From a virus: a DNA stretch of 42,218 bases. The notes beneath the pieces are model-generated. The model ran no database searches. It worked only from the letters and a program-made list of their open reading frames with translations, and was not told the DNA's origin. The number at the start of each line of letters is the position of its first letter. Position 1 is the stretch's first letter. A program made the translations under genes and the position numbers. Below, piece by piece: positions 5,872-22,546 of the stretch. The stretch is taken from IMG/VR virus record IMGVR_UViG_3300032304_002675, positions 1 to 42,218 of that record; one strand, given 5' to 3'.

Positions 5872-6921
5872 CTAGTGCTGAGTTAACAGTATGGTTTTGA
5901 TATCTTTTCTGAAGGCTGCGTCGTCGCCATCTCCCGGAGTGATAATGACGTGCCACTTTTGATCTTCTCCCTTTGGAGTAGACATCATTTCTCCATAAGT
6001 TATAACTTGACTTATTGGCAGCACAAAATGTTTTGCCACTCTTTCTTTAAGTTTTTGCTCGTCAGATATTTTCATCAAATCAAGATCTCGAAACAAATCT
6101 TTAGGAACTACGATTGAAAGTTTATTGGTGGCAAAATCAACTTTACCTGTTTGTGTGGTATTTGCTCCACTCGAAAATGTTGTTTGAAAAGATGCGTCAT
6201 TAGCCACGTCAGCTAATTTGGTATATGCATAACTATCGATGTTGTGTCCATCTTCTTTTAACCTTCTCATCACACTTTCTGCAATTTGCTTGTATTTTTT
6301 AGAGAAGAAATCCCCAGAGTCATTCCATCGTAGAAGCACTCTTGGCTTGTATCCTTGGTAGGCTTTATGTTCATCACATTTACTCTTAAGTTCTTTGTAA
6401 AGTTGCTCTTCATATTTCTCGGGATGATTGATAAGAAAGTTCAATCTTCTTGTCATGCTGTCGTACGCTTCGGAATATTGTATGTACCTTCCGTGTCTGG
6501 CATAGCATATAACAACGCACTGCCCTGCTCCGGGACATGTGTTTATAACATAGAACTTGCCTTCATTTTGATCATATACTATTCCTCGAAATGCAGGAAT
6601 TCCTGTTTTATATACGAATTCATTCGGTCCACCGCTCTTTAGTATTTTATCATTTGTGTTAACAATTGTTTTGGGAGGCTCATTCATTCTTTTTGCGAAG
6701 TCTTCTATGTCAACATCTCCATCTTTAAACAAATCTGACCTGGAGTGAACGAATGGCATAGAAAGCGGGAATTTTTCTCTTTCAGACGTTTTCTTCCCAT
6801 AATTTGCCCGAACAGCATTGAGATATTCTACAAGTTCATCAGGATTCAAACATGTTTTTTGAACGTCCGAAAAATCTCCATCCCAATCCGCCTCATTAAT
6901 AAGCCACTTTTTGAATTGCAT
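5872..6921 (-). CDS. GP88-like phage protein with capsid-targeting-like leader
   Basis: 349 residues. The first ten (MQFKKWLINE, followed by AD) match a T4-type capsid-targeting leader, with I-N-E then Ala as the predicted protease site. Residues about 120-240 follow the phage gene-product-88 family pattern: NTCPGAGQC, CYARHGRY (Cys-rich metal-binding look), a helical region, then LLRWNDSGDF and SYAYTKLADV. Its biochemical activity is not established to my knowledge. The C-terminal 100 residues are variable. No Shine-Dalgarno sequence is visible; TAAATAAA sits four bases before the ATG. It is the first gene of a minus-strand group and diverges from the DUF3445 gene across 34 bases. Confidence 0.7.
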   Translation of the reverse strand: MQFKKWLINEADWDGDFSDVQKTCLNPDELVEYLNAVRANYGKKTSEREKFPLSMPFVHSRSDLFKDGDVDIEDFAKRMNEPPKTIVNTNDKILKSGGPNEFVYKTGIPAFRGIVYDQNEGKFYVINTCPGAGQCVVICYARHGRYIQYSEAYDSMTRRLNFLINHPEKYEEQLYKELKSKCDEHKAYQGYKPRVLLRWNDSGDFFSKKYKQIAESVMRRLKEDGHNIDSYAYTKLADVANDASFQTTFSSGANTTQTGKVDFATNKLSIVVPKDLFRDLDLMKISDEQKLKERVAKHFVLPISQVITYGEMMSTPKGEDQKWHVIITPGDGDDAAFRKDIKTILLTQH

Positions 6922-6955
6922 GATCTTTATTTAGGGCGCAAACTCTACTAATTTT

Positions 6956-7696
6956 ATGTACGATGTTTATAAAAAAGGCTATAACACCCTTCCTAATTTA
7001 AGAAAATTGAATCCAGAGGAAGTGTTCGAAAAGGACAAATCGGACTCGCAGACTCTTCGAATCGAAAAAGAAGAAGCTTTATTGAATCAAAATTACTTCA
7101 TGGAGTCTGATCAGGACCCGAAAATTTATGATGCCTGCGCAGAGTGGATTCGTAAATTTTATCCTTCAAGGCTAAAAAGTGATAATTATCTAGATGTAGC
7201 AAAAGAAACAGAGGAAGACTTCTTAATTCATAGAATGAATTCAGAAAAAGATTGGCTTAGCAGTGCCCATGTTTGTTTTGCTAGTCATTGGCTTCCAGAA
7301 GATAAGATAGGAAAGTCATTTGAGCAGATACACATGCCAGTGCCCATGAATCTTAAAAATAGCAAAAAGCTTGTAGAGGCAATGATTCACGGCGGTATTT
7401 TCGAACGGTTCGTGTGGAGTGTTGTTTACGACAATAGATATAATTTTCATCCAAGACTTCCCTATAAAAAATTCAATAAGAATAATCCGGAAGTTCTTAT
7501 AAAAGTTGAACGACAAGTGACAGTCGGTTTTTCAGAACAAAATTTTTGTCTATTTATATTGAGACAATATTTGATTCAAGAAAAAGATTTAGACAAAAAA
7601 ACATTAGCAGGAGTGATTGAATCGATGACGCCTGAACAAAAAAGATATAAAGGACTAGAAAATTGTTCTGATTTGGTCGAATATCTCAAATCTTAG
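6956..7696 (+). CDS. DUF3445 / haem-dependent oxidative N-demethylase-like protein
   Basis: 246 residues. Residues about 80-210 match the DUF3445 (HODM-like alpha subunit) layout: TEEDFLIH, then CFASHWLPEDKIGKSF (family C-F-P-S-x-W...EK-x-G), IHMPVP, a spacer with ERFVWSV, and IKVERQVTVGF followed by FCLFILRQYL (family ERQ-x-L-x-R-L-P...FTIR). Known members bind haem and oxidatively demethylate dimethylamine-type substrates. Some usual residues differ (for example Ala for Pro before the Ser-x-Trp, and Val-Gly-Phe for Arg-Leu-Pro), so catalysis is uncertain. No obvious ribosome site precedes the ATG. It lies on the + strand, its end overlapping the opposing metallothionein-like remnant. Confidence 0.7.
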   Translation: MYDVYKKGYNTLPNLRKLNPEEVFEKDKSDSQTLRIEKEEALLNQNYFMESDQDPKIYDACAEWIRKFYPSRLKSDNYLDVAKETEEDFLIHRMNSEKDWLSSAHVCFASHWLPEDKIGKSFEQIHMPVPMNLKNSKKLVEAMIHGGIFERFVWSVVYDNRYNFHPRLPYKKFNKNNPEVLIKVERQVTVGFSEQNFCLFILRQYLIQEKDLDKKTLAGVIESMTPEQKRYKGLENCSDLVEYLKS

Positions 7697-7792
7697 TTTT
7701 GCAAGAACATCCCTCGCATTTGCAGTTTTTGCACGTGCATTTTCCACATTTTCCTTCCTTACATGGGGGACAATTACATTTACCTATCTTGA

Positions 7793-7871
7793 GGCGAGAA
7801 CGCCCCTACTTTCGTAGAAAGTTTGCCTATTGCAGATCGTGAGCGATAGCGAACGAGCAAAATAGGCAAAC
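7793..7871 (+). other. Left-end stem-loops of the IS element
   Basis: Three hairpins follow the left boundary. GGCG-AGAA-CGCC spans about 7793-7804; CTAC-TTTC-GTAG spans 7806-7817. An 11-bp stem GTTTGCCTATT (7821-7831) pairs with AATAGGCAAAC (7861-7871), enclosing a smaller ATCG-TGAG-CGAT hairpin. Subterminal hairpins of this kind are the recognition structures of IS200/IS605 ends; the longest could also be a transcription attenuator or RHH operator upstream of the gene at 7991. Confidence 0.55.
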
Positions 7872-7990
7872 CTCTTTAGGGTAGTGGGATGAATCGCCGT
7901 TAATCATAGTACGACATGGATTCATGCCCTTTTCAATGGTTCCCCTAAAATTCGGATCAAAAATCAGTTCTAGCATACTATATACAATGT

Positions 7991-8140
7991 ATGAGCAAAG
8001 AGAACAAAGAAAAAGATATGCTGATTCGTGTTCAACCATCATTGTTTGAGCAGTTCAAGAAAAAGTGTGAAGAAAACTATAAGACAATAAGTGAAGTAGT
8101 CCGTGATTTCATGGTCAACTACACCAAAGAGGACAATTGA
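7991..8140 (+). CDS. Small ribbon-helix-helix (CopG/Arc-like) protein of the IS element
   Basis: 49 residues. After a charged MSKENKEKD start, MLIRVQPSLFEQFKKKC fits the beta strand and first helix of a ribbon-helix-helix domain, and YKTISEVVRDFMVNY fits the second helix. Arc/CopG proteins with this fold bind DNA as dimers and often autoregulate. The TGA overlaps the TTG start of tnpB (TTGA), so the two are probably translationally coupled. An out-of-frame ATG at 7987 gives only a 20-residue product. Likely role: repressor of the element's promoter or an accessory to TnpB (inference). Confidence 0.75.
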   Translation: MSKENKEKDMLIRVQPSLFEQFKKKCEENYKTISEVVRDFMVNYTKEDN

Positions 8141-9378
8141 ACCATCTGTATTCTTACAAATTTAGGTTGTATCCTACCAAACAACAAGAAGTTTTGCTAA
8201 ACAAACACTTCGGTTGTGGAAGGTTTGTATACAACCATTTTTTGGAAAAAAGAATACACGAATACAAGAACAACAAAAAGTCAATAAGCAGAAAAGACAA
8301 CGAAAAAGAACTGCCCGTCTTGAAGAAAGAAAACCCTTGGTTGAAAGAAGTAGGAAGTCAAAGTCTGCAATACGCTGTTGAGTGTCTACAAACTGCGTAT
8401 GACAACTTTTTCCGCAAAGTCAAACAAAAGAACAAAGGCAAAAAAGGATTCCCAAGATTCAAGCGTAGACATGACAAACAATCATTCCGAGTCAAGCAAA
8501 ACATCAAAATCAAAGACAAAAAGTTGATTTGTCCCAAGTTTTTGTCGGGCATCAACTTTGTACAAGATCGTGAATTTAATGGTGAAATTAAGTTTGCAAC
8601 AATTAGCAAGAACAAAGTTGGTCAATACTTTGTTTCAATCACTGTTCAAAAAGAAATACTACCGTTGAAAGAATCGTCAGAGGTTATTGCGTTTGACCTC
8701 AATGTTAAAAATATAGTTGACAGCAACGGCAACAAAATACAAAATCCAAGACCAATGAAACAGTACGAACAACGAATGAAACTTTTGAGCAAAGGTGCTA
8801 GTCGTTGCGAAAAAGGAAGTAATGGCAGAAAGAAAGCCAACCGAAGGTTGGCTAAATTACACTTGAAGATAACAAACAAGCGTGAAGATTTTCTACATAA
8901 GTTAACTCACCGTATAATCAACGAAAACCAAGTGATATGCGTTGAAGACTTGAGTGTAGACTCCATGCTTAAAAAGGTTAGTTATGAAAAAAGAGAAGAA
9001 ACAAGAAAACAAGAACGCAATAGGCATAAAGATATTGCTGATTGTGGGTTCCGCTCTTTTGTTGATAAACTGACCTACAAGGCAAAGTGGTATGGAAGAC
9101 AATTAATTAAAGTTGACCGATATTTTCCGTCTAGCCAACTTTGTAATAATTGCTGTTTTCAAAACAAAGAACTAAAACCTACCGATAGAGAGTGGTTTTG
9201 TTATAACTGCTTTGAGAGTGTTGACCGTGACCACAACGCCGCCTTGAATATACTTGATGAAGGATTAAAATACAGAACGGTAGGAACTACCGAGTTAGCC
9301 GCTTGTCCTGATGTAAGACCCGCTATTAGTGGGCTATTGGTTGGAGCGGAAACCCACCCGTCTTTAGCGGGTGGGTAG
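8137..9378 (+). CDS. tnpB: RNA-guided nuclease TnpB
   Basis: 413 residues from a TTG that overlaps the stop of the RHH gene. The N-terminus (YKFRLYPTKQQ...FGCGRFVYNHFL) is the standard TnpB wedge/REC start. RuvC motifs are intact: Asp187 in IAFDLNV, Glu270 in VICVEDLSV, and Asp363/Asp365 in DRDHNAALNIL. A zinc finger, CNNC...CYNC, lies at about 335-357. Length is normal for the family. TnpB cuts DNA next to a target-adjacent motif using an RNA from the element's right end; it helps retain the element. All expected catalytic residues are present, so it is probably active. Confidence 0.93.
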   Translation: MNHLYSYKFRLYPTKQQEVLLNKHFGCGRFVYNHFLEKRIHEYKNNKKSISRKDNEKELPVLKKENPWLKEVGSQSLQYAVECLQTAYDNFFRKVKQKNKGKKGFPRFKRRHDKQSFRVKQNIKIKDKKLICPKFLSGINFVQDREFNGEIKFATISKNKVGQYFVSITVQKEILPLKESSEVIAFDLNVKNIVDSNGNKIQNPRPMKQYEQRMKLLSKGASRCEKGSNGRKKANRRLAKLHLKITNKREDFLHKLTHRIINENQVICVEDLSVDSMLKKVSYEKREETRKQERNRHKDIADCGFRSFVDKLTYKAKWYGRQLIKVDRYFPSSQLCNNCCFQNKELKPTDREWFCYNCFESVDRDHNAALNILDEGLKYRTVGTTELAACPDVRPAISGLLVGAETHPSLAGG

Positions 9379-9383
9379 TTCAT
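9240..9383 (+). ncRNA. Predicted right-end guide RNA scaffold of TnpB
   Basis: In characterised elements the guide (omega) RNA comes from the 3' end of tnpB plus the right end, its guide starting just past the boundary. Here the scaffold would end at TTCAT (9383) and the guide would begin ACATTTTGTTTTCCTCC (9384 on). A strong hairpin, CCCACCCG-tctttag-CGGGTGGG, is at 9353-9375 and overlaps the end of tnpB. The 5' boundary given is approximate. Confidence 0.5.
9353..9375 (+). repeat. Right-end hairpin of the IS element
   Basis: A perfect 8-bp GC-rich stem, CCCACCCG with CGGGTGGG, around a 7-base loop. It lies eight bases before the predicted right boundary and includes the last codons of tnpB. 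This is a typical subterminal structure of IS605-family right ends. Confidence 0.75.
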
Positions 9384-9429
9384 ACATTTTGTTTTCCTCC
9401 TAAGTTCAAACTATTTAGAAGTTCAACGA

Positions 9430-9438
9430 TATATATTT
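9430..9438 (+). promoter_or_regulatory. TATATATTT box before 9441 gene
   Basis: The same TATATATTT string occurs ahead of several transcription units in this window and is reminiscent of the T4 late promoter core TATAAATA. Here it ends only two bases before the ATG, so if it is a promoter the message would be essentially leaderless or the true start would be later. No Shine-Dalgarno sequence is present. Confidence 0.4.
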
Positions 9439-9440
9439 CT

Positions 9441-9845
9441 ATGATAAGTTTTGCCAATTGGATGGAAATCGCAATCAATCAAGAGATGCCAGAGTTCAAG
9501 AACTCAAAATATGGTCAAAGAGGTTTGTCAAAGATTGTTCCTCAAGAAGACTCATTCAACATAATTCCGGTCAAAATTAGTTATGGAACTTATAACGTCT
9601 TTAAAAAACACATTAACCCGAGATTTAGTCTGGCGAATAGACTTCTTGATCGTAGAGGTTCAAGTGTAGATTGGGTGACCATAAAGGCTTCTAATGAAGA
9701 AATAGCCAATCTCAAAGAACTAGCCGACTATATTATTGGTGTCGCAGGAGAAACAGACGATCCTAGAAAACAAGCAGAAATAAGAACTGCTCATGGGGCA
9801 ATAAAGGATATCGAAAGCTCTATGGCCGGCACAAAAGGAGCATGA
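9441..9845 (+). CDS. Unknown protein with leader-like N-terminus
   Basis: 134 residues, not recognised. The N-terminus MISFANWMEIAINQE has the F-x-x-W-M and hydrophobic-x-x-E spacing of the capsid-targeting-like leaders seen elsewhere here, though the Glu is further in. The rest is soluble and mixed alpha/beta (FNIIPVKISYGTYNVFKKHI, then a helical C-terminus with ANLKELADYIIG). The stop overlaps the next gene by four bases (ATGA), so the following small membrane protein is co-translated. It begins just beyond the interrupted metallothionein-like gene and diverges from it. Confidence 0.6.
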   Translation: MISFANWMEIAINQEMPEFKNSKYGQRGLSKIVPQEDSFNIIPVKISYGTYNVFKKHINPRFSLANRLLDRRGSSVDWVTIKASNEEIANLKELADYIIGVAGETDDPRKQAEIRTAHGAIKDIESSMAGTKGA

Positions 9846-10036
9846 TGTTCAAAATGCTTGTTTTTCTTATTGCTTTAGAACCTGTGTTTTTGACTCTTCA
9901 ATTAGGCGCTATGTGTCTTTCAGCAGGAAAAATTTCTGAGTCTCTTCCTTTTTTGGCTTTGTCTTTGATGTCAATTAATTACTTAATTTCCGGAGCATCG
10001 GATACCATTTCCTACATAAAAAGTCGAATCAAATGA
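9842..10036 (+). CDS. Small membrane protein
   Basis: 64 residues with two likely transmembrane stretches (MLVFLIALEPVFLTLQLGAM and LPFLALSLMSINYLI) and a basic tail (SYIKSRIK). It overlaps the upstream gene by ATGA. Not recognised; a membrane-acting early protein or holin-like role are both possible without further support. Confidence 0.55.
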   Translation: MMFKMLVFLIALEPVFLTLQLGAMCLSAGKISESLPFLALSLMSINYLISGASDTISYIKSRIK

Positions 10037-10047
10037 TTTAGATTTTG

Positions 10048-10056
10048 TATATATTT
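10048..10056 (+). promoter_or_regulatory. TATATATTT box before the 10073-11887 operon
   Basis: TATATATTT lies 16 bases before the ATG at 10073, a sensible distance for a promoter -10/late-type element with a short leader. It is identical to the strings at 9430 and, on the other strand, 13583 and 14663. Confidence 0.45.
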
Positions 10057-10072
10057 GAACTAGATTATTCAA

Positions 10073-10165
10073 ATGGTTGACAGACAAAAATACATGCCTA
10101 ATTTTCTATTGATTTCATTATTTGTTTTTGCTATTCTTTTGTGTCTGCTTTCGGAGATTTTATGA
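10073..10165 (+). CDS. Thirty-residue single-span membrane peptide
   Basis: A short ORF: charged MVDRQKYMPN, then a single hydrophobic stretch (FLLISLFVFAILLCLLSEIL) to the stop. The TGA overlaps the ATG of the next gene in ATGA, which supports real translation as the first cistron of the operon that ends with the caspase-like and zinc-peptidase genes. Function unknown. Confidence 0.5.
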   Translation: MVDRQKYMPNFLLISLFVFAILLCLLSEIL

Positions 10166-10311
10166 GCGTTTCGGGTGTTAGAGTTATTCTTGAAAATGGC
10201 TCATCCGGCGTAATTGTGAGACGACTTAATGCAGAATCGTACGAGATATGGCTTGAAAGTGATGAAATAGTTATTTTGAGCCCGAAAGAATTTAAAGAGG
10301 TTGAAAAATGA
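10162..10311 (+). CDS. Small beta-rich protein of unknown function
   Basis: 49 residues, linked to both neighbours by ATGA overlaps. The sequence looks like a small beta barrel: VRVILENGSSGVIVRRL, YEIWLESDEIVIL, then a Lys/Glu tail. It could be a compact SH3-like or regulatory protein; no family is recognised. Confidence 0.5.
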   Translation: MSVSGVRVILENGSSGVIVRRLNAESYEIWLESDEIVILSPKEFKEVEK

Positions 10312-11255
10312 GAACTTTTATTTTATTTCTATTTATGTGCTCTTGCGCTTTGGCTCAAGATAAAACAGGAATAGCAGTCGATCCTTCTGCCCAAAACATT
10401 GCTGCTTTGTTCACAATGACCAATGAAAATGGAAGGACCAAAAATCTTGAACTTATGGAAGAGGTTTTCAAAGATGGTTCTTTGGGTTTTGAAGTGGAAA
10501 AGCACCATAATGTTTCTTCTGCTTATATTTACAAAAAAATGACCGAGCTTGCCACGAAGTTAGAGAGCGGAGCAACTCTTCTTCTTTACTTCAATAGTCA
10601 TGGTGGCGGTAGCGGAGACAGATTTGGCATGACGGCTCAAGGAGGAAGTTTTAAGTTTAGTAAAGGACTTGATGCGCTAAGTAAGTCCGGGAAACCGATA
10701 CGAAGATTAATATTTCTTGTTGACACGTGTCATGCTGAAGGAAGTATTCAAGACAGTCTAAAACAAGATGGAGAGCTTCTCAGAAATATAAAAACAGCCA
10801 CTCCAACTAATTTTCTTCCAGAACTTCCCTCTGTTTATTCGAGGAAAGAACTTCCTTTTGTATCGATATTTTTGAATTCTATTCCAGTGCAAGGTCAGCA
10901 ATATGATCTAGCAATAGATTATGGCGAGGATTCTGGAGTCTACGATGAGATACTAATCATTAGTTCGAGTAGTGTCGAAGATCTTTCTATCAGAGGCGCC
11001 TTTGCCTACAGATTCAATATCGCTCTTAAATCGGCGAAGAATAATAGAAATACTACCGTGGGTGAGTTTCTGAAAAAATTTGCAGAAAGTCATGGACCAT
11101 CGGGGCAGCAACCTCACTACAAATTGCTCCCTGACAAGTCCATGCTCGATGAACTTCTATTTGGTCCTTGGTTTGTTCAAACTATTCCCATCAGAGATCA
11201 TTCAGGAAAAGGTCAGAAAGCCGACCCCAACTTCATTCCTCTGCCGAAAAAATGA
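10308..11255 (+). CDS. Secreted caspase-like (clan CD, C14-type) protease
   Basis: 315 residues. The start MRTFILFLFMCSCALAQ is a Sec signal peptide with a likely cut after Ala-Leu-Ala. The mature part has the caspase/metacaspase fold marks: a strand LLLYFNSHGGG with His98, and the strand RLIFLVDTCHAEG with Cys141, giving the His/Cys dyad. A downstream strand, DEILIISSSSVEDLS, fits the strand that lines the substrate pocket. The C-terminus is unassigned. Family members cut after Asp, Arg or Lys. Export to periplasm or cell surface is predicted. It is flanked by two small genes upstream and a zinc-peptidase gene downstream, all coupled by ATGA overlaps, so the two peptidases probably act together or one processes the other (inference). 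Confidence 0.78.
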   Translation: MRTFILFLFMCSCALAQDKTGIAVDPSAQNIAALFTMTNENGRTKNLELMEEVFKDGSLGFEVEKHHNVSSAYIYKKMTELATKLESGATLLLYFNSHGGGSGDRFGMTAQGGSFKFSKGLDALSKSGKPIRRLIFLVDTCHAEGSIQDSLKQDGELLRNIKTATPTNFLPELPSVYSRKELPFVSIFLNSIPVQGQQYDLAIDYGEDSGVYDEILIISSSSVEDLSIRGAFAYRFNIALKSAKNNRNTTVGEFLKKFAESHGPSGQQPHYKLLPDKSMLDELLFGPWFVQTIPIRDHSGKGQKADPNFIPLPKK

Positions 11256-11887
11256 AAATTAAAAAGATAACAGACAATATTGCTGCTCTGGTTATTCCTG
11301 ATAATTACGAAAGAGCCATGCTTTTTTGTAGAGTCCAAGAGTTTTACGAGAGTCCGGGCTTGCAATTTAGAAATAAAAAATTTTGCATTTGGGACTATTT
11401 CCGTTGGTACTCAAAAAAAACAGGCTGCTTTTCATATCCTAAAGATTTTGTTGGATATAATTTACCTTTAATTGTAGCAAAAAAATGTTATGAAATAAAT
11501 GACGTTCAGACTCCTTATGATCAAACCATGAAAGACGTTATTGATAGTCTTTGGGAAAACGGCAAAAGAATGTATTTGATTGGCGTTGATTCATTGTCGA
11601 ACTCTGTTTTTGATCATGAACTCGCTCATGCATTCTACTACTGCGATCTGTCTTACAAGAACAAAATGGACAGTCTGACTAGGAAAATTTCTGCTACCTT
11701 TTTGAAGAGGTTTAAGAAGAATCTAAAAGAAATGGGATATTGCCCTTCTGTATTTAAAGATGAAGTGCAAGCATACATGTCGACAGAGTTAAATAAAAGA
11801 ATACTAAAAGGCATACCCAATAAACGAGAATTGCACAAGAAATATAAAGAGGTTTTTAAAAAATACAGAAAATCTTCAAAACTTTAG
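11252..11887 (+). CDS. Putative zinc metallopeptidase (HExxH)
   Basis: I chose the ATG at 11252 because it overlaps the caspase-like stop in ATGA; a longer frame from 11168 lies wholly inside the previous gene. The product has 211 residues. HELAH (His122, Glu123, His126) is a zinc-peptidase motif; a candidate third ligand is the Glu in KDEVQAYMSTEL about 50 residues later. The N-terminal half has KFCIWDYFRWYSKKTG and no recognised domain; the C-terminus is Lys-rich. No signal peptide is present, so it would be cytoplasmic unless packaged or released by lysis. It converges with the ArdC-like gene, their stops overlapping by four bases. Confidence 0.65.
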   Translation: MKIKKITDNIAALVIPDNYERAMLFCRVQEFYESPGLQFRNKKFCIWDYFRWYSKKTGCFSYPKDFVGYNLPLIVAKKCYEINDVQTPYDQTMKDVIDSLWENGKRMYLIGVDSLSNSVFDHELAHAFYYCDLSYKNKMDSLTRKISATFLKRFKKNLKEMGYCPSVFKDEVQAYMSTELNKRILKGIPNKRELHKKYKEVFKKYRKSSKL

Positions 11888-13581
11888 TTTTTTCGGTTTT
11901 TAATCCAATCCGGGGTCGGACTTACCCTGCCGCTTTTGTCTACCTTGGACTCAATAGCCTTGATCTTTTCTCTAACCGATTTTAGTTCCTTCATAGCGTC
12001 GTAGTAGCCCTTCTTGTTTATACCAATCACCATGCCCATGGGGTCTACTCTGCCTTGCATGCTCATAAGGAGCAGTCTCTCGTCACGTTTTAGGCGATCC
12101 AGCTCTGGATTCAGAGACTCGCCTAGTCTAATTTCATCTGACAAATCTAAAGCATCTCCATTGTTGACCATTTTTAAGATTAACGAATACGCCTCGGAAG
12201 GACTCATGCGTCTTAGACGATCATGATAAAGAGCATCTACTACAAATTTTCTTTTTCTGCCATCTACGGCTCCCATGATAGTTCCATCTTTCAACCAAGC
12301 AGAAAAAACTACTCTCTCTGGGTTCGTGTTTTCAGAAGCAACTTCTTCAGCCTCTTCTTTTTCTGGCTCCATTTTTGACTTTATCGCCATTATGATATCT
12401 TTCGAAGCTTGTTGAATGTGCTTTCTTCTTGCTCGGATGTCGTCGCCTTTGGCTCTCCAAAGCGCAAGATAATTACTTGTGTCTTTGGTTTCAAATCCAA
12501 AATGATTCAAGACTATAAACGCTGTTGTTTCCGCATCGATTTCTTTTTCTTGACTAGTTGTTTTTACGTCTTTATTCTTCCAGTGTAAAATTTCATGCGC
12601 AACTTCGTGAACAAGAGTGCTAAAAAGGTTTATTCCTTTAAATGTATCATTAAGAGCCACCTTGCCACCGGCAGAATAGCCTCCCGTTTCGTCTGATAGC
12701 TTTTCATAATTTATATTAATACTGTTGTCTTTTGCCCAAGAAGTCAATGCATTTACTAGATTGGTTACTTCTTCAAGTTCTTCATTGCTGTCCTTGCTCC
12801 AGTCTTTTCTTGTAACCGGCTCAAATGGAGTGGGATGACCTGGAATTGGAACTGTGCTTGTCACATCGTAAACTCGACCCGTAGTAAAAAACATTCTTTC
12901 TTGCTGTTCTTTTTCTCCTGTGGTCTGGTTAAGAACTTCTTTCTTGCTTTTTCTTGGCATAAGTATCACGATAAATTTTTTCCAATCTGACACCCTTCTG
13001 CCAAATTTTTGCTCCCAAGTTTTTGCACCGGCTACGTGTCTGGCTTGACCTTTTGATTGTATCCAAATCAAAATTTGATTGTGTAGGCTGTAGTTATAGA
13101 ATTTTGATGAAAAATCAAGAAAATTTCTTATGAAGTTTTGCTTTGCTGCTTCGTCTGTGGAATTGGCGACGCGCTCGATCATCTTTTCTATGCTGTCGAT
13201 AAGATTTTGAGTGGTTGGATCGTCTGTAAAAACCTTATTTAAGTCTGACTGCATCTTTTCAAGAGTCTCGTCGGCAGGAGTTGGCTCCGATTTTTTAAAT
13301 GGATCTTCAATTGCTACCGGGTCGGCGTCGTATCCACTCATATCGACACCAAGTGTTTTTAATTTTTCACGAAGGTCATCATTTACTCGAAGGGATGAAG
13401 TAGACCAAGTAGAAGTAGGTCTAAAGAAAGAAAATCCTAATTTCTTTAATTCTCCGGCTAATGGCGCGGTATTTCCGTATAAAACGAGAAAACTTTTGTT
13501 TGGATCCTTTGGGTTTGGATCTTTTCTAGTTCTTATAAGAGTTTCTTGTTCATTAAGAAAAAGCCAGTGTCGAAATTGCAT
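11884..13581 (-). CDS. ArdC/M78-like antirestriction candidate with capsid-targeting-like leader
   Basis: 565 residues. Residues 1-11 (MQFRHWLFLNE) match the shared leader, with L-N-E as a possible cleavage site. Residues about 28-78 resemble a small 'GNT...LKKLGFSF...STW' domain found in phage and mobile-element proteins. Residues about 155-260 follow the ArdC ssDNA-binding domain: FYNYSLHNQILIWIQ, then ARHVAGAKTWEQKFGRRV, and IVILMPR. Residues about 280-390 are an M78/IrrE-like zinc peptidase, with HEVAH (His325-His329) and a later DAETTAF acidic helix. ArdC proteins protect incoming DNA from restriction. The C-terminal 180 residues are extra. TATATATTT is one base before the ATG and no Shine-Dalgarno sequence is seen. 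Confidence 0.75.
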   Translation of the reverse strand: MQFRHWLFLNEQETLIRTRKDPNPKDPNKSFLVLYGNTAPLAGELKKLGFSFFRPTSTWSTSSLRVNDDLREKLKTLGVDMSGYDADPVAIEDPFKKSEPTPADETLEKMQSDLNKVFTDDPTTQNLIDSIEKMIERVANSTDEAAKQNFIRNFLDFSSKFYNYSLHNQILIWIQSKGQARHVAGAKTWEQKFGRRVSDWKKFIVILMPRKSKKEVLNQTTGEKEQQERMFFTTGRVYDVTSTVPIPGHPTPFEPVTRKDWSKDSNEELEEVTNLVNALTSWAKDNSININYEKLSDETGGYSAGGKVALNDTFKGINLFSTLVHEVAHEILHWKNKDVKTTSQEKEIDAETTAFIVLNHFGFETKDTSNYLALWRAKGDDIRARRKHIQQASKDIIMAIKSKMEPEKEEAEEVASENTNPERVVFSAWLKDGTIMGAVDGRKRKFVVDALYHDRLRRMSPSEAYSLILKMVNNGDALDLSDEIRLGESLNPELDRLKRDERLLLMSMQGRVDPMGMVIGINKKGYYDAMKELKSVREKIKAIESKVDKSGRVSPTPDWIKNRKN

Positions 13582-13582
13582 G

Positions 13583-13591
13583 AAATATATA
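13583..13591 (-). promoter_or_regulatory. TATATATTT box before the ArdC-like gene
   Basis: On the minus strand TATATATTTC directly abuts the ATG at 13581, nearly the same arrangement as TATATATTTCT-ATG at 9441. Either this is a late-type promoter giving a leaderless message or it is an A/T-rich translation signal. Confidence 0.4.
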
Positions 13592-14662: not shown

Positions 14663-14671
14663 AAATATATA
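14663..14671 (-). promoter_or_regulatory. TATATATTT box in a divergent gap
   Basis: In the 36-base gap between the DUF4177-like gene (minus) and the Gly-rich gene (plus) there is one TATATATTT on the minus strand. It is 22 bases before the minus-strand ATG, and its TATATA core is 5 bases before the + strand ATG at 14677. It may serve one or both genes. Confidence 0.4.
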
Positions 14672-15015: not shown

Positions 15016-15830
15016 AAAAAATTGGATTCTGTTTTACAGGAGAAGGAGCAAGAGGATCGATCCAAGCTGGCATAGCGTTGGGTCTCCACAAAGAAGGAAT
15101 AGATGCAGACTTTACAATAGGCATATCCTCAGGTTCTATTTGCGCAGCATCATATTCTTATCTAGGTCCTCAAGGTCTAGCAGATATGTGGTCTAACGTA
15201 TCAGGCATATTCGATGTGTTTGGATTTAATTGGGACTTTCCTTGGAGAAGTGGGATTTTAAATCAAAGACCTATGGAAAAAATAGTTAAAAGGTCTATGA
15301 CAAATTCTCCAATTTGTGAAAGTGTTGTAGTTCGAATGAATATCGAAGACGGTAGGATGGAATATGTTTCAAACAAAGAAATAAGTTCAGATGAATTCGG
15401 AGAAGCGGTTTTAGGTGCTGTGGCTATTACTGCTCTCGTTGAAGATCGAAACGGATGGGTCGATGCAGGAAGTAGACAACTTGCTCCATTAGAACAGTGC
15501 ATAGAAGCCGGTTGCAACAAAATCTATGTAATAATGGGAAGAAAATTTGACATAGATCAATGGGAACTTCCCTCAGGATTCATGAGATCAATAAAAATGG
15601 CTTACAGAGCACTTGATATTAGTCTTAATGAAATAATGATGCGAGATATAAATAAATGCCTAAAAAATGAAGGAGAGTTTGGGTATAAAGGAATAGATAT
15701 ACACTTAGTTGAACCTAATGAAACAATATTTCAAACCATAGAATTCAACAAATGCAAAAGTGGGGTTGAATATGGAATTGAAAACTACACAAAAAACGAC
15801 AAAAGAGGACTGAGGAGACTACTCAAATGA
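15012..15830 (+). CDS. Patatin-like phospholipase
   Basis: 272 residues from a GTG overlapping the previous stop. Catalytic marks are in order: oxyanion loop GEGARGS (residues 10-16) near the N-terminus, nucleophile motif GISSGS with the Ser in G-x-S-x-G at about 37-41, and the dyad Asp in WVDAGS (family D-G-G/A). Patatins hydrolyse acyl groups of membrane lipids with a Ser/Asp dyad. No signal peptide, so action on the inner face of the membrane or after lysis is expected. It sits between two basic leader-bearing small proteins in one operon, which is an odd location for a lipase and hints at a role during entry or egress (inference). Confidence 0.83.
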   Translation: MKKIGFCFTGEGARGSIQAGIALGLHKEGIDADFTIGISSGSICAASYSYLGPQGLADMWSNVSGIFDVFGFNWDFPWRSGILNQRPMEKIVKRSMTNSPICESVVVRMNIEDGRMEYVSNKEISSDEFGEAVLGAVAITALVEDRNGWVDAGSRQLAPLEQCIEAGCNKIYVIMGRKFDIDQWELPSGFMRSIKMAYRALDISLNEIMMRDINKCLKNEGEFGYKGIDIHLVEPNETIFQTIEFNKCKSGVEYGIENYTKNDKRGLRRLLK

Positions 15831-16042
15831 AATTTAAAAAATGGTTAGTAGAGAGAAATCAGCGAGATGCAACAAAGATGCCGGAAAGGATGAGCAGCTT
15901 GGAACTTCACCAACGCGCAGTTTCTAAAGCGGCACATGGAATGCAACACGGAAAAGCAGGAACTATCGAAACCAAGAAAAGAAAAGGATCTAGAGCAGAG
16001 TCTAAAAGAAGCGCAATTAACAGATCTTATGACGGAGAGTGA
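15827..16042 (+). CDS. Small basic leader-bearing protein
   Basis: 71 residues, coupled to the patatin-like gene by ATGA. Begins MKFKKWLVE, matching the shared leader with L-V-E as candidate cut. The remainder is strongly basic with His, Lys and Arg (AAHGMQHGKAG, TKKRKGSRAESKRSAINR). It is like a small internal head protein in composition. No domain recognised. Confidence 0.6.
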   Translation: MKFKKWLVERNQRDATKMPERMSSLELHQRAVSKAAHGMQHGKAGTIETKKRKGSRAESKRSAINRSYDGE

Positions 16043-16063
16043 CTAGAAATGTCTCCAACTCAC

Positions 16064-16073: not shown

Positions 16074-16097
16074 CTTGAGGCACTAAGAGGATATAAA

Positions 16098-16919: not shown

Positions 16920-16954
16920 TTTGAAATTGTATTTTTCTAACTAATTTAGATTGA

Positions 16955-17821
16955 ATGCAATACTTTGTAAGCGCCGAAAATTCTAGTTACTTTTATTGGC
17001 AGTTGGAGTTGTTAATAGAAAGTTTTCTTATGCATGGGCTTGAAGATAAGCTCGTCATAGGACTTGCAGAAAATAACAATCCAAAAATCAGAGGCTTCTC
17101 ATCAAATCTTGTTAATTACGGAACAAAATTCATTCATGAGAACGAAGGAGAAAAGGCAGAATATCTTCCAATTAATCGTGTCGAATCAATAAGACACGCT
17201 TTGGCTTATGGAATTTTAAAATACCCGTTTGTGCTTATCCATGCAGATATGATTCTTAAAAATCCTATATCTTTAGATGGAGAAGAAGATTTTGGAATTA
17301 TTGTAAATAATTTGGAAGAGTTAGAGAGTGACCAAAATTCAATCAAAAATGCACTCGAACCATTTTTAGACAAACTAGCAGACGAAAGATCAGTAGAAAA
17401 GAAAAATTTGCCCATTCTTCCTTTGTTTTCATTCCCTATTGTTTTTAATGAACCATCTGAATTTGTTTCAGATGTGTTTTTCTCAAAACTACAGATGAAT
17501 ATGATCGAAATCTTAAAAGAAAAAGGAAGTAAGTTTCCTTGTGAAAGAGCCGCATTGGAACTTACACTGATTGAGACTTTTCAACATTGTTCTATAAAAG
17601 GAAAATTCCTGTCCGCCTCTATGATGTCTGACATTAACGAAATGAATTTCATTCACTACAAAACAGGCGTCCCACCTGTTTTTCACAAGAAGTTTTTCAA
17701 GTTTGATCAAGGCGCTTATCATGGTGATGGTCCATATGAAGTGCTTATGGATCACAACCCAACAATCAATACAAACTACGTTCAAAGCGTAATCAAATCA
17801 TACAAGAAAAGAAACGGTTAA
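16955..17821 (+). CDS. Glycosyltransferase-like protein
   Basis: 288 residues. The start YFVSAENSSYFYWQLELLIESF...KLVIGLAE resembles the first strand and helix of GT-A fold transferases of the Hyp-O-arabinosyl/Ser-galactosyl type (Y-x-x-W-Q). LIHADMIL at about residue 93-100 is in the place of the donor-binding D-x-D strand. A late MNFIHYKTGVPPVFHKK segment may be part of the acceptor side. The link to these families is by pattern only, and the catalytic residues cannot be fixed. It converges with the CCA-adding enzyme gene, stops overlapping in TTAA. Confidence 0.5.
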   Translation: MQYFVSAENSSYFYWQLELLIESFLMHGLEDKLVIGLAENNNPKIRGFSSNLVNYGTKFIHENEGEKAEYLPINRVESIRHALAYGILKYPFVLIHADMILKNPISLDGEEDFGIIVNNLEELESDQNSIKNALEPFLDKLADERSVEKKNLPILPLFSFPIVFNEPSEFVSDVFFSKLQMNMIEILKEKGSKFPCERAALELTLIETFQHCSIKGKFLSASMMSDINEMNFIHYKTGVPPVFHKKFFKFDQGAYHGDGPYEVLMDHNPTINTNYVQSVIKSYKKRNG

Positions 17822-19383
17822 GCGGCTTCGTGGTCGTCAAACATCTGCTTTAATTTCTTTTTATTAATATCCTTAATAACCGATCCTCGAAAATGAGCCG
17901 GAACATCCGCTAGATTTTGTAGTCTGATCTCCGGGTGTACTTCTTGTGTTGGTTTTCCTTGATCGTCTTTTGCAAACCAACTCACAAGTTTTGTTGGATC
18001 AGGGGTGAAGTCCGCAAATCTTCTAACTTTTTTAGACCAATTAGGACGAGGGCTTCGCACTTGATTTCCATCGACAATATCGAAAAGTTCTACCCATTTT
18101 TTAATCTGATCTTTGGTAATGCCCAGTATTTTCTTCTTGCTTAAAAAATCATCAAGATTGTTGGCGTCAAATTCTTTTAGTTGAAGAAGATAAGAGATTA
18201 TTCCTCTTTCTTGATTAGACCAGCCAGTGTTTAATTCTTGCTCTCCTGATTTTCTGACGGGAGAAAGAACCTGATTTACTTGTTCAATTGAATTGTCTTG
18301 TAGAATCCATGAGAGAGCAAGAAACTTATCTTTTTTGTCTCGCAGTTGATTTGGAACATTCACATTAATTGAAACTCCCGGAAGGACTTTGCGAATAAGA
18401 CCGGTTTTAAAGTACAATTCAACATATTTTTTAGGATCTATTTCTGGGTCGTCTAGACCTTTTAGAAATTCTTCGCGAACTCTTTCTAAAGCCACACCTT
18501 CTAGGTCAAGAAATTTTGGCAAGGCTTTGACAATATCCGGATCTATTGGAGAGTTCTTTCCGAATTTACAATGAAACCTTATTGCTCTCATTACGCGAAG
18601 TTTATCTTCATTAAATCTTTCTTCTGCTTTTCCAACTGTCCTCACTTTGTTATTATTTATATCGTGATAGCCTTGTTTTGTAGGATCATAAAGTTTGCTA
18701 TTTTCGCCATCCACTTTATTAAGTTCAATATACATTGCGTTGATAGTCAAATCTCGTCTTGCTGCATCTTCATGAGGATTATCAACAAAATCTACCTCGG
18801 ACTGACCATCGACAGTTTTCGCATCTTTTCTAAATGTGGCTATATCAAATTCTTCGCCATTAACAACTGCTCCTATAACGAACGGCTTACTTTCTTGGCT
18901 TGCGTCTCTACCCTTTAGGTACCAAATCTTCTTATCTTCGTCTTCAGCAACTTCCGGGGTGAAGCCAAGACTCATTCCTTTGATCTTAGATCCATCTTTT
19001 CCAATCTTTCCGGATCTATCGTAATCTGCTTTCCCTTCTGCTCCTGCTGGAACCTTAAATCCTGCGTTGTGTAATATTAAAGCAATTTGTTCGGGCGTTG
19101 CATTCGTGGCCAAATCCATGTCCTTAGGTTGTTTTCCGCGAAGAAAATCACGAACTGGGCCACCTACTAGGAAAAGAGATTTCTTGGGAAGTGTGACTTT
19201 TGAAGACACATCATTTGTCAATTGTATATTTCCACTATCCAAAAAAGCTTGTATTATAGGACGCATATTACTCGGTGGCACAAAGCCTTTTTCGAGTTTG
19301 ACATACTCCTTCTTCCAGTCTTTTTTTTCAGACTCAACAATTACATTTGCTTTTTCAGAAACAAATTCTTTAAATGATTTCAT
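17818..19383 (-). CDS. cca: CCA-adding tRNA nucleotidyltransferase / poly(A) polymerase-like enzyme with leader
   Basis: 521 residues. MKSFKEFVSE at 1-10 matches the shared leader. The class II nucleotidyltransferase core follows: FLVGGPVRDFL (G-G-x-V-R-D), then DMDLATNATP with the metal-binding Asp pair, then FDIATFR, and the RRDLTINAMY and RVMRAIRF motifs. These enzymes add CCA to tRNA 3' ends; relatives make poly(A). Motifs alone do not separate the two. The C-terminal 200 residues include helical tRNA-binding-like parts and an unassigned extension, so it is longer than most bacterial CCA enzymes. The start overlaps the upstream stop in ATGA. No tRNA gene lies in this window. Confidence 0.85.
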   Translation of the reverse strand: MKSFKEFVSEKANVIVESEKKDWKKEYVKLEKGFVPPSNMRPIIQAFLDSGNIQLTNDVSSKVTLPKKSLFLVGGPVRDFLRGKQPKDMDLATNATPEQIALILHNAGFKVPAGAEGKADYDRSGKIGKDGSKIKGMSLGFTPEVAEDEDKKIWYLKGRDASQESKPFVIGAVVNGEEFDIATFRKDAKTVDGQSEVDFVDNPHEDAARRDLTINAMYIELNKVDGENSKLYDPTKQGYHDINNNKVRTVGKAEERFNEDKLRVMRAIRFHCKFGKNSPIDPDIVKALPKFLDLEGVALERVREEFLKGLDDPEIDPKKYVELYFKTGLIRKVLPGVSINVNVPNQLRDKKDKFLALSWILQDNSIEQVNQVLSPVRKSGEQELNTGWSNQERGIISYLLQLKEFDANNLDDFLSKKKILGITKDQIKKWVELFDIVDGNQVRSPRPNWSKKVRRFADFTPDPTKLVSWFAKDDQGKPTQEVHPEIRLQNLADVPAHFRGSVIKDINKKKLKQMFDDHEAA

Positions 19384-20087
19384 TGAAAATCTCCATCCTT
19401 TAATCTGTCGGGAACTTTTGTTTTTGGCTTAAAAGAATAAACACATATAAGGTTTCCACTTTCCTCTTCTTCTATTTTTTTTTCAGCTTTTCTAAGATCA
19501 TACTTGCTATCGAGTCCTTTCTGGGTCATATCATTTACGATCATGATGAGTATCAGAGCTCTTGTGAAACTCTTTGCCCATTCTGTTTCTTCGATATTCT
19601 TTGCACTTGGACTGAGGAATTTCCCAGGAGTCGCAGGATCGTCTCCCAATTTTTTAACCCTAGGGTCGTTAGCGGGATCAGGCACAAATGGAAGAACCTT
19701 AGAAAACATATTTTCACTATAATTATTAGAATTAAATATCCTTACCATCTTTCCGGAACTATCTTTATAAAGCGGCTTTTGGAGCGGTAGTGTCCCGTGC
19801 ATTACCATTTCTTTATTTAAGTCGGGAAATTTAACAAGGTTGCCAGGAGGCGTGAATACTCTGCCTGACTTAGTTAGTTCATTTCCAATTCCAGATCCGA
19901 CACCAGCGATTACTGACGATACTGCTTTGTTGTCGAATCCCTTAGATATCGGAAGTTGCGTACTTGAATGACCATATTGTGCTGCTAGACCGTACAGAGC
20001 GCTTCTGTCGACGTTGGAAATATTTGATGGTCTTACCTTTGTCGCCGACGCTTCTTCTATTTTGTCTAGCCATTGTTTGAATTTCAT
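19380..20087 (-). CDS. Unknown protein with leader and predicted protease site
   Basis: 235 residues from the ATG at 20087, chosen over a longer frame because it overlaps the upstream stop (ATGA) and begins the shared leader MKFKQWLDKIEE followed by Ala-Ser. I-E-E then Ala is a textbook T4-type prohead protease site. The body is unrecognised: polar, Gly/Ser/Pro-rich (VIAGVGSGIGNELTKSG, then LPFVPDPANDPRVKKLG), with one moderately hydrophobic helix (ALILIMIVNDM). Second gene of a three-gene minus-strand operon ending with the CCA enzyme. Confidence 0.6.
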   Translation of the reverse strand: MKFKQWLDKIEEASATKVRPSNISNVDRSALYGLAAQYGHSSTQLPISKGFDNKAVSSVIAGVGSGIGNELTKSGRVFTPPGNLVKFPDLNKEMVMHGTLPLQKPLYKDSSGKMVRIFNSNNYSENMFSKVLPFVPDPANDPRVKKLGDDPATPGKFLSPSAKNIEETEWAKSFTRALILIMIVNDMTQKGLDSKYDLRKAEKKIEEEESGNLICVYSFKPKTKVPDRLKDGDFQ

Positions 20088-20341: not shown

Positions 20342-20368
20342 AATCGATCCTCTACAATTTAAGACTAT

Positions 20369-20380
20369 CGATATATATAG
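20369..20380. promoter_or_regulatory. Divergent TATATATA box
   Basis: ATCGATATATATAG sits in the 44-base gap between two divergent genes. Its TATATATA core is self-complementary and can read either way: 6 bases before the + strand ATG at 20386, and about 30 bases before the minus-strand ATG at 20341, which has its own ribosome site. Confidence 0.4.
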
Positions 20381-20385
20381 TTTGT

Positions 20386-20835
20386 ATGAATAAAGAACTA
20401 GCCGAAGAGGTTGTTGAAACTTCCTTGAATGAAGTGGAAAAGCCACAGCCTCAGGATCTATCAATTGTGAGCGACGAGTCTCTCCTTGGGGTTTACGGGG
20501 AAATAATGAATAACCTACGGGATGACAGAAGCCAGGTTTCGGCTCTAGTAGACACATTTTCAAATATGGTGTTAAACGATGGAGATTCGTCTACCGCAAG
20601 CAAGGAGGCGCTTGTCAATCTGCTGAAAACAAAAATCGATGCGACAGATAAAATGGCTAAAATAGCTGATCTTATGACTAGAATAAAACTAAGACAGCCC
20701 GATACATTTCAGCCTTGGATGGGGAAAGGCAAAGAAAAAGGTCCGACAATTAACATATACGACTCCAGCGGAGTGAATAGAAAATCACTAATGGAGAAGA
20801 TACAGAAGGAAAAAAAGAATGAATCACAATCTTGA
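20386..20835 (+). CDS. Unknown phage protein, possibly small terminase-like
   Basis: 149 residues, mainly helical and acidic at the N-terminus. The core reads VYGEIMNNLRDDRSQVSALVDTF, then STASKEALVNLLKTKIDATDKMAKIADLMTRIK, a style seen in T4-type phages just ahead of head or tail genes and slightly reminiscent of gp16 small terminases, but no diagnostic motif is visible. It ends in a Lys-rich tail (MEKIQKEKKNESQS). The next gene starts 17 bases before its stop. Treat the terminase idea as weak. Confidence 0.5.
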   Translation: MNKELAEEVVETSLNEVEKPQPQDLSIVSDESLLGVYGEIMNNLRDDRSQVSALVDTFSNMVLNDGDSSTASKEALVNLLKTKIDATDKMAKIADLMTRIKLRQPDTFQPWMGKGKEKGPTINIYDSSGVNRKSLMEKIQKEKKNESQS

Positions 20836-22069
20836 ATTCTGGCTCGAAGAGGAAATGCCTCCACAAGAACCACAAGTTACTAATCAAGTTTCTGCTACAG
20901 ACGCTCCAGAAGCACAGCCCGAGGCTTCAGAGGATCAGGCTCCAGAACAACAGCCAGAAGAAGATGTTTCCGAGGACCCACAAACTCCTGACATGCCGGA
21001 AGAATCAGAAGAGCAAGATTTTGAAGTATGGAAGAGCAATTATTTCAAAGAAAGTATCAAAGGAGATCCTCAAAAACTCATGGACATGATATCTCCCATG
21101 AGAGAGAAAGAAGACCTTCAGCCATATCAAAGAAAATTTGTAGAAGACAATTGGAATGTGCAACTCCTTCGCATGAATGCAAACATCTCAGACGCTTCAA
21201 AACAAATTAGAAAAAGCATTAAAGACCAACTTGATAAAAACAATCCAGCAACGAGCGTTGTTAATCACATATTTAATTCACTTGAATCGTCACCGGTTCT
21301 TGGCGAGGTGTTCGTTAGAATGATGGGTTATAGCGGAAACAAAGGAGAACTCCACAGAAAGTTTATCGCTGCACTTACAGGATCAGTACAAGTTAGCAGT
21401 AGTCCAGATAAAGAAAACATCATATTTAACGAAAGAGAATACTCGATAAAAATGTCGACAAGGCTCAATTCAGAATGGGGAGAAGTTGCCTTGGGAAGTT
21501 GGAGTCTGCGTGAAGATGATCCCGAAAGATATCTCTCAGAGCCCGAACTTAAGAGACTATCTGAAGGAAGCCCAGAAGAGCGAGATGTTTTAAGAAGAAG
21601 AATTGTTGTCGAGTCCATAGCAAAACACTTCGAAGAACAGGCTTTTATTATCAATGTGGTTGACGAGAACGGAACAGTTTATCACATGGGCTGGGACATA
21701 TCTAATGCGCTTCGAGGTGCATACACGGAAGGAAAGATTTCAGTAAAAACAGTGAAATCAGAAAATTCAGAAGCACTCATAAGCGACGATGGTCAGATTG
21801 TTCCAATGGTGGATCTTAAAATTTATTTTGTAAAAGAGACGGGCGGACAAGATGAATACGGAAATCCAGAGAAAGAAGAAATAGAATTCATGGAAAAAAG
21901 AAATGGCATGTTATTTTTAACTGCCGGTTTATCTACTGTAAAGGACGCGTCCGAGACCATGCAAGGAACTGAGTTCAAAGAAGCTCCCTATCCGGGAAAC
22001 CCAAGCGATCTCAAAGTTCTAAAGAGGTGCGTTTACAGTGCTCACGACATGTTAATGAGGCAATGTTAG
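20819..22069 (+). CDS. Unknown protein with leader-like start and acidic linker
   Basis: 416 residues. AAGGA lies about nine bases before the ATG. NLEFWLEEEMPP resembles the shared leader (W-L-x-E), followed by 55 residues rich in Glu, Pro, Gln and Ala (like a disordered linker), then a folded part from residue 65. The latter has WKSNYFKESIKGDPQKLMDMI, a middle section NSEWGEVALGSWSLREDD and a C-terminal YSAHDMLMRQC. No family recognised. Placed just ahead of tail genes it could be a head or portal-side accessory protein. Confidence 0.55.
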   Translation: MNHNLEFWLEEEMPPQEPQVTNQVSATDAPEAQPEASEDQAPEQQPEEDVSEDPQTPDMPEESEEQDFEVWKSNYFKESIKGDPQKLMDMISPMREKEDLQPYQRKFVEDNWNVQLLRMNANISDASKQIRKSIKDQLDKNNPATSVVNHIFNSLESSPVLGEVFVRMMGYSGNKGELHRKFIAALTGSVQVSSSPDKENIIFNEREYSIKMSTRLNSEWGEVALGSWSLREDDPERYLSEPELKRLSEGSPEERDVLRRRIVVESIAKHFEEQAFIINVVDENGTVYHMGWDISNALRGAYTEGKISVKTVKSENSEALISDDGQIVPMVDLKIYFVKETGGQDEYGNPEKEEIEFMEKRNGMLFLTAGLSTVKDASETMQGTEFKEAPYPGNPSDLKVLKRCVYSAHDMLMRQC

Positions 22070-22078
22070 GAGATTAAA

Positions 22079-22546
22079 ATGAAATTCTCAAGTTTTTTAG
22101 ACAAAAAGAAAAAGCAGACAGTCAATGAACTCAAAATAATAAAAGATGTTCTTTCTCAAGGAGATATAAAAGTCGAGGATTTCACAGAAGAAGAAACACC
22201 TTATTTATTTGTAAATTCTACTGAAGAAAGTCTGGATTTTGATGGAGTGAGAGTCTATAAAGTTGGATCAAATATGGCATATAGGATACAAAGAGAAAAA
22301 AAAACTGAGCCTTATGGGGCGGCATATCCTTTAAATTTAGAAAACATGTTCGGTGATTTGATCTCAGATATGTCAGAAGAAAAAGCCGCAGAAGATATCA
22401 AAAAAGCCGTTATTGAGGAGTTCAAGATATTCTTTAAGAGAAGTTCCGAGGCACAGGACGAAATTAATTCCGGCATTATAGACGATAGTGGTAGGAAACT
22501 AGTTAGTTCTGGTTTTGGCGACATAAGTAACTCCATGTCGAATTAA
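22079..22546 (+). CDS. Unknown small protein
   Basis: 155 residues, AGGAG seven bases before the ATG. The start MKFSSFLDKKKKQ partly resembles the shared leader but lacks the Glu. The rest is soluble: an N-terminal helix, a strand-rich centre (YLFVNSTEESLDFDGVRVYK) and a helical C-terminus. The 80-base gap after it carries the box at 22580 and no other gene. Confidence 0.5.
   Translation: MKFSSFLDKKKKQTVNELKIIKDVLSQGDIKVEDFTEEETPYLFVNSTEESLDFDGVRVYKVGSNMAYRIQREKKTEPYGAAYPLNLENMFGDLISDMSEEKAAEDIKKAVIEEFKIFFKRSSEAQDEINSGIIDDSGRKLVSSGFGDISNSMSN

Follow-up and report, generated by a model that had tools for sequence, protein, structure and literature searches.

A leader resembling the T4 capsid targeting sequence on many unrelated proteins of a huge-phage lineage

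The window analyzed here, IMG/VR virus record IMGVR_UViG_3300032304_002675 at its full length of 42,218 nucleotides, is a 42-kb piece of a large myophage whose tail module is T4-like (tape measure, positions 23157-29618; baseplate wedge proteins, positions 34196-36194). Several of its genes encode proteins that begin with a common short leader, as in MKFKKWLVE, MQFKKWLINEA, and MKSFKEFVSEKANVIVES. This leader is very probably a capsid targeting sequence (CTS) like that of the T4 internal proteins, which has grown into an extensive cargo system. A strict pattern set from the T4 leader, ^M.{1,3}[FY]..[WFY][LIVM].{0,5}E, was run on mechanically called genes and finds it in 7 of the 37 complete genes of the window (5872, 11884, 17818, and 19380 on the minus strand; 9441, 14677, and 15827 on the plus strand), where arithmetic from the pooled chance rate gives an expectation of ∼0.1. 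An initial annotation of the window, which had proposed capsid targeting from eight N-termini, was accurate as to the position and strand of each of them, and Glu is indeed followed by Ala in two of these proteins, those of genes 5872 and 19380.

The CTS of the T4 internal proteins IPI, IPII, and IPIII (Mullaney & Black 1996; reviewed in PMC9026906) contains residues for targeting (4 and 7) and for processing (8 and 10). Shared with the window lineage are an N-terminal leader of 10 to 20 residues, aromatics three apart, a hydrophobic residue beside the second aromatic, an (L/I)-x-E motif, the presence of a gp21-family (S77) protease and of gp23 in the lineage, and basic cargo. The leader of T4 IPI is a longer variant, MKTFKEFTSTTTPVSTITE followed by Ala, with a cut site further downstream; this more distant site resembles that of the CCA-adding enzyme family of the window lineage. 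In contrast to T4, with its handful of tagged proteins, all of them small, and its separate Alt leader, the window lineage shows tens of unrelated tagged families including recognizable enzymes, Trp is usual as the second aromatic, and the spacing to the Glu varies. The T4 proteins encoded by ipII and ipIII are established as packaged and cleaved. The initial annotation had also ascribed a leader MKTYQEFIxE to Alt, which does not hold, as Alt begins with MELITELFDE; the core of its reading, a gp21-linked leader on varied cargo, appears to stand on the combination of enrichment, conserved aromatics, [LI]xE, head linkage, basic cargo, and an upstream box. Applied to T4 as a positive control, the strict pattern gives three genes, ipII, ipIII, and 61.1. 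Gene 61.1 (NC_000866.4, positions 18966-19130, minus strand) encodes a hypothetical protein of 54 residues starting with MKTFKEFIKEDM, a perfect CTS-like leader, and is a candidate for an unrecognized internal protein.

The frequency of the leader was determined in a clade set consisting of the window, 14 IMG/VR relatives retrieved via the 20819 protein, and LR756511.1, the 595-kb record of an uncultured huge phage. LR756511.1 is placed in the window lineage because it shares 90% identity with the relative G005 in the major capsid protein (210 residues compared) and 48% identity with the window in the baseplate protein. A nucleotide comparison of the window's initial 24 kb with cultured phages gives no direct match. 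Chance rates were obtained by shuffling residues 2 to 25 or by applying the pattern at internal methionines. In the window and the 14 relatives, 88 of 1,331 genes match, compared to 3.5 ± 1.9 (maximum 11) after shuffling, and the pattern matches at 17 of 5,914 internal methionines. LR756511 carries the leader in 28 of 1,018 genes, with 2.2 expected. The scan against shuffles and unrelated phages proposed in the initial annotation thus favors its claim, with the leader on 97 of the 2,066 nonredundant proteins of the clade, compared to 4.8 ± 2.1 in shuffles, and with hardly any enrichment in the six unrelated phages examined. These proteins fall into 66 unrelated families, out of 1,487 families in all; about 5 of the 66 should be false, so that ∼60 families share the leader. 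G005, G011, and G014 overlap nearly identically, for which the nonredundant counts correct and some per-family counts do not. The simple gene caller misplaced a few starts plainly, for example, that of the G005 copy of the 11884 family, in which the leader starts at a later Met than the called start.

The six control phages show little or no enrichment of the leader: matches are found in 1 of 496 genes of RaK2, 1 of 350 of phiKZ, 4 of 728 of Atu_ph07, 1 of 212 of Flavobacterium phage immuto, 2 of 216 of Microcystis phage Mel-JY01, and none of 505 in the 400 kb of the huge phage LR756508. The leader is therefore a mark of particular lineages and not of jumbo phages or gp21-bearing phages generally. 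Atu_ph07 (MF403008.1) has another recurrent N-terminus, M(R/K)L(I/T)(D/E)LL/F..., in several genes (loose pattern, 10 compared to 2.6 expected), possibly an Alt-like leader class. For an independent retrieval, IMG/VR was scanned for DNA encoding MKFK(K/E)WL...E at an ATG, which yielded 32 stretches. Further, different leaders occur in 22 of their 383 genes, compared to 0 of 294 genes in stretches retrieved with two scrambled patterns (p = 3e-6), and phages with one leader tend to hold several. These results bear on the explanation that a loose motif was picked by eye among many N-termini: the pattern is indeed degenerate, and a conserved primase family fits it by accident, but an approximately 20-fold excess over shuffles and internal methionines, its repetition in LR756511 and in the independently retrieved contigs, and the little or no enrichment in six other phages make chance highly improbable.

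Within the families of the window, the two aromatics are 92 to 100% conserved, while the residues between them vary. The [LI]xE motif is found at residues 6 to 20 in 61 of 149 families with the aromatic core, compared to 17% of controls (p = 1e-10). The conserved entity is the peptide and not the DNA, since codon choice varies (the Leu codons in the leader are mixed) and upstream DNA is mostly unshared, the upstream 30-mers of leader genes being no more alike than those of random gene pairs in most genomes. These observations, together with a spacing to the Glu that varies while the residues are kept, stand against the view that the shared N-termini reflect a translation-initiation or other nucleotide-level element or recent DNA duplications instead of a protein signal. 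The first Phe favors TTT over TTC (47:18, compared to 13,710:9,995), so that slight nucleotide effects are possible, but as an explanation of the leader this view is very improbable.

Among the proteins with a strict match is the product of gene 11884 (positions 11884-13581, minus strand), a predicted cargo protein of 565 residues resembling ArdC-N anti-restriction proteins, with the leader MQFRHWLFLNE at positions 13549-13581. It matches PF08401 with an E value of 2e-4 and 21.9 bits, slightly below the Pfam cutoff of 22.6, and the anti-restriction family phrog_7245 (E = 7e-9); its HExxH zincin motif (HEVAHEILH) is conserved in the family alignment. F3, W6, L7, and F8 are invariant in this family, and residues 2, 4, and 5 are only 20% conserved. 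Gene 17818 (positions 17818-19383, minus strand) encodes a predicted cargo protein of 521 residues from the tRNA CCA-adding enzyme/poly(A) polymerase family (PF01743, E = 4e-25; phrog_2244, E = 1e-43; CCA-adding NCBIfam models with scores under their cutoffs). Its leader is MKSFKEFVSE (positions 19354-19383), and cleavage might also occur at another site, following residue 17. F4 is 100% and F7 92% conserved in this family, and [LIV]xE occurs at residues 10 to 17 in 15 of 16 members, compared to 27% of control N-termini, although its exact position shifts among the members, resembling T4 IPI. The CCA-adding enzyme is adjoined, in the window and in most relatives, by gene 19380 (positions 19380-20087, minus strand), encoding a predicted cargo protein of 235 residues with the leader MKFKQWLDKIEE (positions 20052-20087) followed by Ala. 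F3 and W6 are among only seven invariant columns of its family, whose members share 17 to 45% identity.

The GP88-family protein of gene 5872 (positions 5872-6921, minus strand; 349 residues; PF17338, E = 8.5e-20) is likewise predicted cargo, with the leader MQFKKWLINE at positions 6892-6921 followed by Ala. The GP88 match begins only at residue 107, so that a long extension precedes it, and the leader is retained in three relatives as MEFKEWLYNE. Two smaller predicted cargo proteins are encoded on the plus strand, a Gly-rich protein of 112 residues with a polybasic C-terminus (positions 14677-15015) and a small basic protein of 71 residues (positions 15827-16042). The former carries the leader MTTFSEWLKLKE (positions 14677-14712) followed by Asp, with F, W, and L-x-E-D invariant in the family; the latter carries MKFKKWLVE (positions 15827-15853) followed by Arg. 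The gene between them (positions 15012-15830, plus strand) overlaps both by a few bases and encodes a patatin-like protein, slightly below the Pfam cutoff, without a leader. The weakest strict match is MISFANWMEIAINQE of gene 9441 (positions 9441-9485, plus strand). Two further genes on the plus strand bear related N-termini. The predicted leader-bearing protein of 416 residues at positions 20819-22069, with a low-confidence structure model, begins with MNHNLEFWLEE (positions 20819-20851), where Leu replaces the first aromatic and the strict pattern is missed. By sequence it is counted as a variant leader because the W-L pair (W8 and L9) is invariant across 13 orthologues; residues 15 to 40 are only 26% conserved. 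Gene 22079, absent from the initial annotation, has the leader core MKFSSFLDKKK (positions 22079-22111) without a nearby cut site; F-x-x-F is present in every member of its family, and F3, F6, D8, and K10 are 100% conserved.

No head genes are recognized in the window, and the link to the head is provided by its relatives. In G005, LR756511, and the contig G028, leader genes of the window families share a record with genes for gp21 and gp23. G005, which shares the leader genes of the window, has a T4-type head cluster of portal, core-like protein, gp21 (PF03420, E = 4e-28), scaffold-like protein, and gp23 (E = 4e-86), and its leader gene 93794 (MTNFKEWLISE followed by Ala) lies inside this cluster. 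The portal gene of G005 (L020, positions 90970-93459, plus strand) apparently contains an intein. In LR756511, the leader-core genes 516905 and 520504 adjoin the capsid gene. LR756511 has two PF03420 matches, the second being a gp21-like protease at positions 242240-243133 on the minus strand (E = 3.5e-9), distant from the head cluster. G028 combines leader-bearing CCA-adding enzyme and 19380-family genes with gp21 and gp23, and contig L209 (G017) has the leader gene MKFKEWLNEQVLINEE between gp21 and a scaffold-like gene. Near the N-termini of the G005 and LR756511 capsid proteins are the sequences LINE followed by Asn and LFNE followed by Ile, which resemble the leader sites (by similarity only).

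A second feature of the leader genes is a TATATA box located at most 45 nucleotides upstream of the start, which is present in 28 of 47 leader genes that open a transcription unit, compared to 128 of 938 other genes (after stratification by genome, odds ratio of 6.8 and chi-square of 45). In the window, it is found directly upstream of the 13581 start of gene 11884 (positions 13586-13591, minus strand) and, on the plus strand, ahead of 14677 (positions 14666-14671; present in 5 of 5 family members), 9441 (positions 9430-9435), and gene 20386, just upstream of the tail block (positions 20372-20377; 9 of 11 family members). The box also precedes the core-protein gene in G005 and LR756511. The late promoter of T4 is TATAAATA, to which the TATATA box is comparable, and the box may be regarded as a candidate late promoter. 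Its occurrence before a gene ahead of the tail module and the many leader genes adjoining that module (tape measure and baseplate) would also fit a virion sorting tag for the tail or baseplate that binds a tail or neck component instead of the head. However, other leader genes are located within head clusters or next to them, those of LR756511 are dispersed along the genome, the motif matches the head CTS of T4, and the [LI]xE enrichment implies a prohead protease; a tail tag is improbable.

Leader proteins are basic, with a median isoelectric point of 8.5 compared to 6.1 (p = 3e-9; first 12 residues removed from all proteins), also in LR756511 alone (p = 9e-5); T4 internal proteins are likewise basic (PMC9026906). 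The AlphaFold model of the 19380 protein shows a helix at residues 3 to 12, low confidence at residues 10 to 90, and a confident core, and comparison of the model with the PDB gives no fold match. A helix followed by disorder, with F, W, and L at positions i, i+3, and i+4 sharing one face, would also fit an amphipathic helix that localizes unpackaged proteins to a membrane or compartment of the infected cell. Such a function does not predict [LI]xE after the helix, basic cargo, or a box common to structural genes, and the T4 matches to the pattern include known internal head proteins, which leaves this explanation with little probability.

The leader proteins of the relatives include an RNA ligase (PF09414), an RNA-repair phosphatase of the HAD_SAK_1 family, a kinase-like protein (AAA_33), a GNAT acetyltransferase, an alpha/beta hydrolase, and a protein weakly matching 2H phosphoesterases. 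In every relative found to encode it, the CCA-adding enzyme shows an F-x-x-F/Y core. Two homologous pairs suggest from their sequences that the tag is modular and can be gained or lost: RNA ligase G010_34639 has the leader and its homologue in LR756511, LR511_156065, lacks it, and of the paralogous alpha/beta hydrolases of G009, G009_98453 has it and G009_95694 lacks it, the leaderless copy being judged by called starts only in both pairs. The proposal that all RNA-repair enzymes are cargo was rejected, as the majority of the RNA ligase and AAA_33 matches do not belong to the strict leader set. The cargo of the window yielded no ADP-ribosyltransferase domain; G008_5957, which looks like an ADP-ribosyltransferase, and several large leader proteins have no family match or convincing PDB-sequence match. 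A leader protein of 854 residues (L068-L070 in G007, positions 39404-41968, minus strand) has a second, internal leader LNFKEWLENL at an apparent domain junction, which suggests a fusion of two tagged proteins. L221 (positions 5842-10089, plus strand) encodes tandem paralogues of 813 and at least 601 residues with the same leader, MNFNFQEWLLILEE, and a family of small proteins with GLYPLGYGGIGLYPP-like repeats, usually leader tagged, occurs in LR756511.1, G001, G008, G009, and G013.

For this CTS-type leader, we infer late timing, docking, packaging in virions, cleavage, ejection, and an anti-defense role of the leader proteins. Late in infection, the leader-bearing proteins would be made together with the head proteins, and the short amphipathic helix at their N-termini, M-x(1-3)-F-x-x-(W/F)-L, would dock them on the prohead scaffolding core via its two aromatics. 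A gp21-family prohead protease would then cut after (L/I/V)-x-E a few residues further, so that the mature protein would stay in the head with the DNA and be ejected into the cell upon infection. The huge-phage lineage would have spread this tag to tens of unrelated proteins; the tagged set includes the CCA-adding enzyme, essentially universal in the lineage, the ArdC-like protein, the GP88-family protein, and small basic proteins, joined in some members by RNA ligase, an RNA-repair phosphatase of the HAD type, and enzymes resembling polynucleotide kinase.

Several observations weigh against this mechanism. The gp21-like prohead protease (PF03420) that figured in the initial annotation, present in the relatives G005, LR756511, and G028, was not found in the 42-kb window itself, as expected for a fragment. 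Among independently retrieved contigs, which are mostly fragments, gp21/gp23 occur in 5 of 22 with leaders, compared to 1 of 17 from scrambled patterns, a difference that is not significant alone. RaK2-like phages have gp21 yet no leader, showing that gp21 does not require it. The canonical (L/I)-x-E is missing in several leaders, as in WLYNE of the GP88 relatives and in gene 9441, where the window copy is without [LIV]-x-E and one of three relatives has one; the 22079 family shows no consistent [LIV]xE before residue 17. Most RNA ligases of the clade are outside the strict leader set. Some strict matches are false positives: the Toprim primase family (G005_72668) was considered as cargo and rejected, the motif probably belonging to the conserved N-terminus of the enzyme.

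Other phages and mobile elements show partial likenesses to the window lineage. For DarB of P1, an N-terminal signal of 30 residues is enough for head entry and the cargo is anti-restriction (PMC9024508), but the signal is described for a single large protein. In phiKZ and SPN3US, a prohead protease that is a distant relative of gp21 trims many ejected head proteins (PMC5694885); in contrast to the window lineage, their propeptides are mostly far longer than the T4 leader, and no short leader is common to unrelated proteins. Polyvalent proteins of phages and conjugative elements with ArdC-N and metallopeptidase domains are predicted to travel with incoming DNA, and the 11884 protein resembles them (PMC5512222); however, they are defined by their multidomain architecture, and a CTS-like leader is no defining feature.

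Other genes of the window encode a thioredoxin and CAP domain fusion that is lipoprotein-like (positions 3874-4650, minus strand) and, on the plus strand, a match to the alpha subunit of haem-dependent oxidative N-demethylase (positions 6956-7696; PF11927), which is surprising for a phage, an IS605-type TnpB-like transposase (positions 8137-9378; OrfB_IS605, Cas12f1-like TNB domain), and a caspase-like peptidase domain with an apparent signal peptide (positions 10308-11255; PF00656, E = 2e-11; 9 lineage members). The genes at positions 13626-14171 and 41736-42218, both on the plus strand, form one family with 20 clade members, the first with a SET-domain match (PF00856).

The heads of these phages may carry a preloaded anti-defense kit, a possibility put at slightly less than even, that would combine anti-restriction with tRNA and RNA repair and be centered on the CCA-adding enzyme, with RNA ligase, phosphatase, and kinase-like proteins added in some members. 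Damage to tRNA by abortive host defenses could then be mended before any phage gene is expressed, and the tag would act as a general postcode turning any acquired enzyme into an injected effector. ArdC-type proteins accompany incoming DNA in plasmid systems (PMC5512222), RNA repair in jumbo phages is thought to counter tRNA-cutting defenses (PMC7824862), T4 IPI blocks the gmrSD restriction system, and infection of E. coli ECOR17 requires T4 IPIII (PMC9391042). If the CTS reading is true, the head contents of uncultured huge phages would be readable from sequence, as a tagged gene would predict a packaged and injected protein. This would open a direct route to unknown anti-defense proteins, with T4 IPI and IPIII as supporting precedent, and provide new tags for protein delivery via phage heads. 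The idea of the T4 internal protein, based on a few proteins of small size, would then extend to tens of families, tRNA-repair enzymes among them.

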